Part shown: piece after piece, positions 28,014 to 33,272 of the stretch
Layout: each line of letters opens with the position of its first letter
Numbering within the stretch: the first letter of the stretch is position 1
Assembly (NCBI GenBank): GCA_913048215.1
Contig: CAJWXC010000006.1
Location: 1 to 35,163, forward strand
DNA: 35,163 nt
Direction: 5' to 3'
Origin: an uncultured Flavobacteriaceae bacterium
Lineage (GTDB): Bacteria; Bacteroidota; Bacteroidia; Flavobacteriales; Flavobacteriaceae
The notes under the pieces: generated by a model
Seen by the model: only the letters and a program-made list of their open reading frames with translations
Databases searched by the model: none
What the model was told of the DNA's origin: nothing
Program-made: the position numbers and the translations under genes

Positions 28014-29297
28014 ATGGAAAGTGTACAAGCAACAAAGCAACGATTTGGAATTATAGGAAATGATCCTAAACTTAATCGCGCCATAGAAAAAGCAATTCAA
28101 GTTGCCCCCACAGACATTTCAGTACTGGTTACCGGAGAAAGTGGTGTTGGAAAAGAAAGTGTGCCTAAAATAATTCATGCACTATCTCACAGAAAACACG
28201 GAAAATACATTGCCGTAAACTGTGGTGCTATTCCAGAGGGGACCATTGATAGTGAACTTTTTGGCCATGAAAAAGGAGCCTTTACAGGAGCTACTGCTAC
28301 CCGTAGCGGTTATTTTGAGGTGGCAGATGGCGGTACTATTTTTTTAGACGAAGTTGGAGAATTGCCCCTACCCACTCAAGTAAGACTATTGCGAGTGCTT
28401 GAAAATGGTGAGTTTTTAAAAGTTGGATCTTCCAAAATACAAAAAACAGATGTGCGTATTGTAGCGGCTACTAATGTGAAAATAGTTGAAGCTATTGAAA
28501 AAGGAAACTTTAGAGAAGATCTGTTTTACCGTCTCAGCACAGTAGATATTAACCTGCCACCCCTTAGAGAGCGGTCTGAAGATATTCATTTATTGTTCCG
28601 CAAATTTGCGAGTGATTTTGCTCAAAAATATAAAATGCCCACCGTGCGCCTTGATCAAAGTGCTATAGATTTATTATTAAAATATCGTTGGAGCGGTAAC
28701 ATTAGACAGTTAAGAAATGTAGCCGAACAAATATCTGTTCTAGAACAAAGGCGAGAGATAAACGCGGCTACTTTGAGCCAGTATTTGCCCAATATGTCTA
28801 GTAATTTACCTGCCGTTATTAATTCTAAAAAAGCAGCCGGAGATTTCTCTAATGAGAGAGAAATACTCTACAAAGTATTATTTGATATGCAAAAAGATGT
28901 AAACGATCTTAAAAAACTTACCATGGAACTCATGAAAACTGGTAATGCAAATAAAGTAAAAGAAGAAAACCCCACTCTTATAGAAAAGATATACAACCAA
29001 GAGCAAAACAATGAAGCTACTCTTGCTGCTATTGTTGAGCAGGAGCCAAATCATCACCCCATATCTAATGAGGTAGAGGTACTTGATATGCCAAGTAATG
29101 ATGCAGAGCTTAAAAAAGGGAATTATGATTTTGTAGAAGATGTTAAAGAAGAAGAAAGTTTGTCTTTGCAAGAAAAGGAACTAGAACTGATAAAAAAATC
29201 ACTAGAAAAATACGACGGTAAACGCAAAGATGCCGCAGATGAACTTGGCATCTCCGAGCGCACTCTATATCGTAAAATCAAACAATATGATTTGTAA
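28014..29297 (+). CDS. Sigma-54-dependent transcriptional activator (AAA+ and Fis HTH, no recognisable N-terminal sensor)
   Basis: Walker A GESGVGKE, sigma-54 loop GAFTGA, Walker [15 protein letters not shown]-terminal Fis [27 protein letters not shown]. Confidence 0.93.
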
Positions 29298-29878: not shown

Positions 29879-30802
29879 TTGAACACACAAAACTATAGCT
29901 TATTACTGGCAGACCCGCAACAAATTACAAAACAGACGCTCTCTGATTTGGTAGAAATTATTGACGTATATCCTTATTTTCAGAGCGCACAAGCGTTGTG
30001 GCTAAAGGGATTAAAAAACCAAGAGAGTTTTAGATACAATGATGCTCTTAAAGTTACAGCAGCACACACCACCAATAGAGATATATTGTTTGAATTTATT
30101 ACCTCTGATAGCTTTGAGCAGGATCAAATTTCATTGCAAATTTTAAGCAACGACCAGGCCATAGGCCAGTATGAAATTGAAATTGGAGAGGATCTTTCTA
30201 AAACCATTGATACAGAGCAAAAACAAGAACACAAGCAGGCCATAGAAAATGCAGAAGCTGTCTTAAATCCAAACCTGTTTGAAAAGAAAATAGCAGATGT
30301 AGAGCAAATGATAGCTGTGTCCCAAGAATTTTCTGGCAAAGAAGACAGCTCCAACAAAGAGCAACAAATAGCTGCCTCAAGTGAGCTTGGCATTGACACC
30401 CCTCTTGCCTTTTCAAAAAAAGACAGGCATTCTTTTTCTCAGTGGCTTCAATTAACCTCTGCCACCCCTATTGTGCGAGAAGAAACACCAGAGCAAAAAA
30501 AGCAGAAAGAAACTACACAAAAACAATACAAGAATGATTTGATTGAAAAATTCATCAATGAAAAGCCAAAAATTAAAACATTAAAAAATAGCACCCAGCA
30601 ACAAACCCTACCACAAGAAGAATCAAAGCCCTCAAACTCTCTGATGACAGAGACTTTGGCTAAAGTATATCTTCAGCAAAAAAATTACAAAAAGGCAATT
30701 CAGGCTTATAAAATATTAATTTTGAAAAATCCCGAAAAAAGTGGTTTCTTTGCAGACCAAATTAGAGCAGTAGAAAAACTGATAAACACAGAAGCATCAT
30801 GA
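29879..30802 (+). CDS. Hypothetical protein with C-terminal TPR-like repeat
   Basis: TETLAKVYLQQKNYKKAIQAYKILILKNPEKSGFFADQI; likely TTG start at 29879 just after the lptE-like stop, rather than ATG 29825. Confidence 0.7.
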   Translation: MNTQNYSLLLADPQQITKQTLSDLVEIIDVYPYFQSAQALWLKGLKNQESFRYNDALKVTAAHTTNRDILFEFITSDSFEQDQISLQILSNDQAIGQYEIEIGEDLSKTIDTEQKQEHKQAIENAEAVLNPNLFEKKIADVEQMIAVSQEFSGKEDSSNKEQQIAASSELGIDTPLAFSKKDRHSFSQWLQLTSATPIVREETPEQKKQKETTQKQYKNDLIEKFINEKPKIKTLKNSTQQQTLPQEESKPSNSLMTETLAKVYLQQKNYKKAIQAYKILILKNPEKSGFFADQIRAVEKLINTEAS

Positions 30803-31125
30803 GTACCTTTACAATATTTTTAGTTTTAATAATTTTCGTAGCATTCTTGCTAATAGTAGTAATAATGGTTCAAAACCCAAAAGGTGGAGGATTATCTTCT
30901 TCTTTTGGAGGTGGAGGATCCACACAAATGGGGGGCGTCCAAAAAACCACAGATTTTCTAGACAAGTCTACATGGACACTAGGAGGCTTATTACTTGTGT
31001 TAATTTTACTATCAAGTATCCCTTTGGTGGGAAGTATTCAAACCCAGCAGTCAAGTATTCAAGATACAGAGGTTATCCAAACCGCATTGCCAACACAAGA
31101 AACAACTCCTGTAGAGACTCCATAA
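30799..31125 (+). CDS. secG: Preprotein translocase subunit SecG
   Basis: Two TM helices with VQNPKGGGLSSSFGGGGSTQMGGVQKTTDFLDKSTW; ATGA overlap with upstream ORF. Confidence 0.93.
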   Translation: MSTFTIFLVLIIFVAFLLIVVIMVQNPKGGGLSSSFGGGGSTQMGGVQKTTDFLDKSTWTLGGLLLVLILLSSIPLVGSIQTQQSSIQDTEVIQTALPTQETTPVETP

Positions 31126-31139
31126 CAAAACAGTACACT

Positions 31140-31183
31140 AAAAAAAATGCCAGCTTGTCACTAAGCTGGCATTTTTTATTTTT
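31140..31183 (+). terminator. Strong intrinsic terminator between secG and groES
   Basis: AAATGCCAGCTT-gtcact-AAGCTGGCATTT (12-bp stem) followed by T-rich tract. Confidence 0.88.
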
Positions 31184-31192
31184 ATAGCCCTA

Positions 31193-31205
31193 AAAATGTC
31201 ATAAA
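31193..31205 (+). promoter_or_regulatory. 13-mer AAAATGTCATAAA flanked by CCCTA/TAGGG inverted repeat upstream of groES
   Basis: CCCTA (31188-31192)-AAAATGTCATAAA-TAGGG (31206-31210); the 13-mer matches 26471-26483. Confidence 0.5.
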
Positions 31206-31210
31206 TAGGG

Positions 31211-31233
31211 TATTGGCACACTTTCTGCCAATA
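31211..31233 (+). promoter_or_regulatory. Putative sigma-54 (-24/-12) promoter of groESL within an 8-7-8 palindrome
   Basis: TTGGCACACTTTCTGC: GG-N10-GC spacing and TGGCAC-N5-CTGC (consensus TGGCAC-N5-TTGC); also TATTGGCA-cactttc-TGCCAATA. Confidence 0.65.
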
Positions 31234-31298
31234 GTATTTAAAATAAATAATGTATAACATGGTTTTTGGAATTTCAAAAACTAATAACAAATATAATA

Positions 31299-31574
31299 AT
31301 GGGATTAAAAATTCAACCTCTTTCAGACAGAGTCGTGGTAACACCACAAGCGGCAGAAACAAAAACAGCCTCAGGTTTGTACATACCAGACAGCGCTAAA
31401 GAAAAACCACAACAAGGTACCATAGCGGCTGTTGGAAATGGAAAAAAAGACCACAAGATGACAGTAAAAGTTGGTGACACTGTACTGTATGGCAAATATG
31501 CTGGTACAGAGTTAAAGCTAGATGGCAAAGACTATTTAATTATGCGCGAGGAAGATATACTTGCAATAATATAA
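31299..31574 (+). CDS. groES: Co-chaperonin GroES
   Basis: [46 protein letters not shown]. Start refined from 31266. Confidence 0.96.

Positions 31575-31634: not shown

Positions 31635-33272
<1,638 letters not shown>

Follow-up and report, generated by a model that had tools for sequence, protein, structure and literature searches.

A sigma-54 promoter of groESL in Flavobacteriales, its probable activator and a candidate enhancer in the preceding terminator, with signs of their retention in reduced symbionts

We find that groESL in a 35,163-nucleotide stretch of DNA from an uncultured Flavobacteriaceae bacterium (the window) lies behind a conserved -24/-12 promoter of the sigma-54 class, and we propose, with a probability of roughly 0.8, that RpoN, the bEBP-type activator encoded upstream and a set of TGNCA sites drive groESL, dnaK and grpE-dnaJ, and that reduced symbionts keep this circuit. 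From the observed locus anatomy, conservation, co-occurrence, co-loss and whole-genome site ranking, we infer the following course of events. RpoN holoenzyme would transcribe groESL from TGGCAC-N5-CTGC (31214-31228); the orphan bEBP (28014-29297) would bind an upstream TGNCA-N3-TGNCA site in the secG terminator (31148-31160) and a proximal TGTCA (31197-31201), contact the closed complex and remodel it with ATP. The operons of dnaK and grpE-dnaJ would fall under the same circuit, which would therefore amount to a sigma-54 heat-shock (protein-quality) regulon, and those reduced insect symbionts that keep rpoN would retain exactly one activator, the groES-linked bEBP, for their chaperone genes. 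The inducing signal may perhaps be chaperone occupancy, sensed through a conserved linker of the bEBP. A more sweeping statement, that in Flavobacteriales RpoN and this single bEBP, which has no sensor domain, make up a switch dedicated to heat shock with its enhancer in the preceding terminator, and that rpoN persists in symbionts of 263-624 kb because sigma-54 there serves chaperone genes only (groESL, grpE-dnaJ and dnaK), we regard as more probable than not.

The genes of the locus run in the order miaB, bEBP, lptE, a gene for an unknown protein, secG (30799-31125; PF03840), which is the final gene of the upstream operon, groES (31299-31574; PF00166) and groEL (31641-33272; PF00118), with bEBP, secG, groES and groEL on the forward strand. 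The promoter, TGGCAC-ACTTT-CTGC at 31214-31228, lies within TATTGGCACACTTTCTGCCAATA, found exactly at 31211-31233, with the -24 GG at 31215-31216 and the -12 GC at 31227-31228 separated by the 10 nt characteristic of sigma-54 promoters. The initial annotation placed this site about 66 nt upstream of the groES start codon, and the distance from 31233 to the ATG at 31299 bears this out; measured from TGGCAC-N7-G (GG-N10-GC), it is 85 nt in the window. Transcription would be predicted to start near 31240. Between the end of secG (31125) and the promoter lies the intrinsic terminator of the secG operon (31142-31177), 16 pairs followed by a T-run; the hairpin described earlier is thus present, with a stem longer than the 12 bp then noted. 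In a relative of the same genus as the window (L075, G011:C5:328755-329028), groES is broken into two frames that overlap, behind an intact promoter, which suggests a frameshift and probably an assembly error.

Conservation of this promoter, which had been put forward as a check on its assignment, is far beyond chance at its position. Among groES upstream regions drawn from 87 relatives at the level of genus, family and order, 83 carry TGGCAY-N7-G at the groES position, compared to a mean of 0.58 and a maximum of 3 in dinucleotide shuffles, as do 78/80 loci of a separately fetched set with record titles, which possibly overlaps the first in species. Selection for TGGCA only, 35-140 nt before the ATG, yields 84 sites, in every one of which (84/84) the base 13 nt beyond the initial T is the -12 box G, with TTT at +8 to +10 nearly fixed and the second base of the -12 GC variable across relatives (C 44, A 23, T 15). 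Three of the 87 relatives lack TGGCA at groES, one of them having TGGTAT, and rpoN is present in 98/98 relatives and in the window genome. These findings uphold the proposal that groESL in this lineage is driven from a sigma-54 promoter. Taken by itself, the motif TGGCAYN5YTGC is weak evidence: the 1.8-Mb window genome holds 12 matches versus 5 for the reversed pattern, a signal too low for the motif alone to serve as a genome-wide regulon finder, and it was rejected for that use.

Outlying loci extend these observations. TGGCAC-N7-G is kept in three loci with Cytophagia titles (L229, L230 and L249), and a contig titled as a Bacteroidales MAG, possibly outside the order (L257), has, upstream of groES, a terminator-like stem containing TGTCATAATGTCA, together with TGGCATAAAATATGC and an adjacent bEBP. 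From these four loci, the origin of the system may predate the order.

Upstream of the -24 box, TGNCA occurs 283 times in the groES regions of relatives against 45 expected, and pairs exactly 8 nt apart occur 48 times against 0.2 in shuffles. TGWCA starts 17 nt upstream of the -24 T in 52/84 relatives and in 55 of the 80 separately fetched loci, and further half-sites cluster ~47 and ~57 nt upstream in an ~10.5-bp phase (R 0.60, n=90, a value from related genomes that carries no formal test). The window has the same arrangement, overlooked in the initial annotation: a proximal TGTCA at 31197-31201, whose start is exactly 17 nt upstream of the T of TGGCAC, and a distal TGCCA-GCT-TGTCA at 31148-31160 (half-sites at -66 and -58 relative to TGGCAC), a candidate activator site within the terminator stem-loop, with a third half-site, TGGCA, in the 3' arm of the stem at 31167-31171. 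TGTCA-N12-TGGCAY occurs once in the window, with 0.03 expected; a search of the genus recovers groES and dnaK along with within-gene matches, and a shifted background pattern, TGGCAYNNTTTNNGG, whose displaced final base cannot match the groES site, gives 12 matches in 68 genomes. The strongly enriched TGNCA-N3-TGNCA dyad upstream of the promoter is a candidate enhancer, and TGTCATAATGACAT is a candidate binding sequence for the bEBP.

The overlap of this candidate enhancer with a terminator can be judged against a second terminator of the same loci. Of 74 loci in which a terminator hairpin precedes groES, stem-loops on the secG side contain TGYCA..TGRCA in 62 and TGNCA-N3-TGNCA in 47, compared to 0/75 for each in the groEL terminators; by this difference, the sequence of the stem is constrained beyond termination, and the element at 31142-31177 would have a dual use, serving in RNA as a terminator and in DNA as an enhancer. 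That TGYCA in the stem instead reflects a mere preference in terminator sequence, with no enhancer there at all, is unlikely but by no means negligible, and would leave the promoter and activator claims unaffected. Many Flavobacterium-type stems do contain TGCCA..TGGCA without the 8-nt pair, as such a preference would predict, but it does not account for groEL terminators that lack the pair, nor for the pair being present where there is no terminator, in symbionts and ahead of grpE and dnaK.

The bEBP encoded at 28014-29297 (PF00158, PF25601, PF02954) is a 427-aa protein with an AAA+ domain (PF00158, E 1.7e-66), GAFTGA, lid, a conserved linker, an acidic region and a Fis-type HTH (HTH_8), and it has no N-terminal sensor domain. 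The Walker motifs, GAFTGA and the DNA-binding HTH that define such activators are all found in its sequence and in an alignment of 94 orthologues, in which the HTH block is nearly invariant, and a PDB search with the protein returns the AAA+ domains of PspF and NtrC. Also conserved in the 94 orthologues is a block of the linker between the AAA+ lid and the HTH (residues 280-303, window 28851-28922), a candidate site for a stress signal or an inhibitor. The gene ends 2.0 kb upstream, and a bEBP adjoins groES in 68/75 loci with sufficient flank. Clearly flavobacterial loci (L180 and L220), with groES 88% and 81% identical and the bEBP adjacent, also occur on two contigs whose records name Candidatus Rokubacteria (OMJU01000080.1) and Bifidobacterium breve (CALPUN020000006.1); these contigs are mislabelled or misbinned.

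Reduced symbionts reveal how closely these components travel together. The set is the family of G074, 68 genomes that are nearly all strongly reduced, with bEBPs counted at E < 1e-20. The rpoN gene is present in 55/68, and exactly one bEBP, near groES, accompanies it in 55/55, counts that are not independent because one genus supplies most of the genomes. The symbiont bEBPs are orthologous to the window protein at every locus read; seven compared end-to-end share 49-62% identity with it and are far more distant from the second bEBP encoded in the window genome. Of the 13 genomes without rpoN, from three genera, 12 are devoid of any bEBP, and the exception (G147) has a 281-aa frame that lacks an HTH and lies away from groES. 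A locus of G147, on a 19.6-kb contig of this genome without rpoN (L159, G147:C1:18200-19636), encodes a PF00158-like AAA+ protein with no Fis HTH, either contamination or an unrelated ATPase.

The DNA sites follow the same pattern, being lost along with rpoN. Neither promoter nor enhancer is found upstream of groES in 11/11 rpoN-minus genomes examined, compared to a promoter in 28/31 and an enhancer in 25/31 rpoN-plus symbiont groES loci; counted by genus, 4/6 with rpoN and 0/3 without it have the groES promoter. In some rpoN-minus genomes the C-terminus of MiaB directly precedes groES, and the activator stretch has therefore been lost from between them. In symbiont genomes of ~600 kb, most groES sites are a perfect dyad, ATGTCATAATGACAT, which precedes TGGCAT by 45-59 nt; the pattern TGTCA-N3-TGACA-N(25-55)-TGGCAY occurs once per genome in 26 such genomes, always just before groES, and its reversal gives zero matches in the same 26.

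Four symbiont genomes (263-624 kb) were scanned whole with a PWM built from the groES promoters of free-living relatives. The groES promoter ranks first genome-wide in the two complete genomes of 345 kb and 624 kb; when an enhancer pair and a promoter are both required, the top sites in these two are groES and grpE, and in the 309-kb (309,299 bp) and 263-kb (263,431 bp) genomes, which have a degraded groES site, grpE comes out on top. A Markov control gives 1 joint enhancer and promoter site of at least 7 bits in 40 genomes. TGTCA-N3-TGACA lies upstream of grpE (PF01025), which is followed by dnaJ, in 4/4 of the scanned genomes, and dnaK has TGGCAY-N7-G in 3/4. Degradation of the groES site with retention of the grpE site marks two of the six rpoN-plus symbiont genera (G161 and G162), the grpE promoter of G161 scoring poorly at -0.3 bits. 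In the window genome, dnaK (L286, C45:6274-6296) is preceded by TGCCA-N3-TGTCA-N12-TGGCAC, a layout like that of the groES half-sites in which the enhancer therefore nearly abuts the promoter.

Synteny, together with the status of this protein as the sole bEBP left in reduced genomes, indicates that the activator 2 kb upstream very probably acts on groESL, as first suggested, and that the window's own bEBP is very probably the activator required by the promoter. It is improbable that a sigma-54 promoter here answers to some other bEBP while the upstream protein acts elsewhere. The window genome, 83% complete, does encode one other strong bEBP, a receiver-domain protein on contig C46; F. psychrophilum has three, left unassigned in its 5'-end mapping study (PMC9723704); and synteny need not imply regulation. 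Against this, the sole bEBP of the reduced symbionts is the syntenic one, and those same symbionts still have enhancer and promoter at groES or grpE. The C46 protein is a possible additional activator.

It is less probable still that the housekeeping sigma factor transcribes groESL, or that CIRCE/HrcA controls it, with the conserved block serving as something else, e.g., an RNA element. Weak sigma-70-like matches do occur nearby, but CIRCE (TTAGCACTC-N9-GAGTGCTAA) is not found near groESL at up to 3 mismatches, the interval upstream of groES has no Bacteroidota -33/-7 promoter, the element vanishes along with rpoN, and a sigma-54-type start is mapped in F. psychrophilum (PMC9723704). The idea that the 8-7-8 palindrome over the promoter (31211-31233), TATTGGCA-N7-TGCCAATA, is an operator where a repressor or dimeric activator competes with RNA polymerase can be set aside as very improbable, since the match, perfect in the window, reaches all 8 arm positions there only (1/84), arm complementarity in the 84 relatives averages 3.98/8 versus 3.94 with 3' arms re-dealt among genomes, 4 such perfect palindromes occur in the window where the Markov mean is 1.1, and TTGGCA-N7-TGCCAA occurs in few places genome-wide (4 exact). 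With outer arms neither conserved nor covarying, the palindrome was rejected as a functional unit and judged a chance extension of the sigma-54 promoter.

The sigma-54 core of this finding is already known, since 5'-end mapping in F. psychrophilum assigns a sigma-54 (SM4) motif to groESL, dnaK, grpE-dnaJ, htpG, clpB and lon (PMC9723704); a 2025 survey likewise predicts chaperones in Bacteroidota sigma-54 regulons (PMC12316311). Retention of RpoN in flavobacterial symbionts has been called unusual and tentatively tied to nitrogen (PMC3971599), and is in our view better explained by chaperone expression. Our search, which covered main texts and few subscription journals, found no literature that links symbiont rpoN retention to chaperones or names the activator or enhancer. 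What looks new is the assigned activator, the conserved candidate enhancer TGNCA-N3-TGNCA with a TGWCA fixed 17 nt upstream of the -24 box, the placement of the distal enhancer within the stem of the secG terminator, seen in the window and in many relatives, and the explanation of rpoN retention. Little is understood of how Bacteroidota control their heat-shock response, and an activator and its DNA site are now proposed in testable form. The proposal accounts concretely for the persistence of a second sigma factor in very small endosymbiont genomes, and points to one stretch of DNA on which selection apparently acts in two roles, RNA terminator and protein-binding enhancer.

The SM4 promoters of F. 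psychrophilum share the order, the genes and the -24/-12 promoter class with the system described here, whereas the available part of that account contains no activator assignment, enhancer sequence, terminator overlap or symbiont retention (PMC9723704). CIRCE/HrcA and sigma-32 heat-shock control likewise target the groESL and dnaK operons; here, in contrast, there is no CIRCE, and the control proposed is positive, by sigma-54 and a bEBP. With bEBPs of the PspF type, which activate stress operons directly, the window protein shares an AAA+ domain plus Fis HTH without an N-terminal sensor, and GAFTGA; it differs in a long linker with a conserved block, an acidic region and predicted targets that are cytosolic chaperones. 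The NifA enhancer is TGT-N10-ACA, and enhancers of the NtrC/NifA class resemble the candidate site in being dyads upstream of a -24/-12 promoter with helical phasing, whereas the candidate here is TGTCA-N3-TGACA, often lies in a terminator stem and is near the -24 box at grpE and dnaK.
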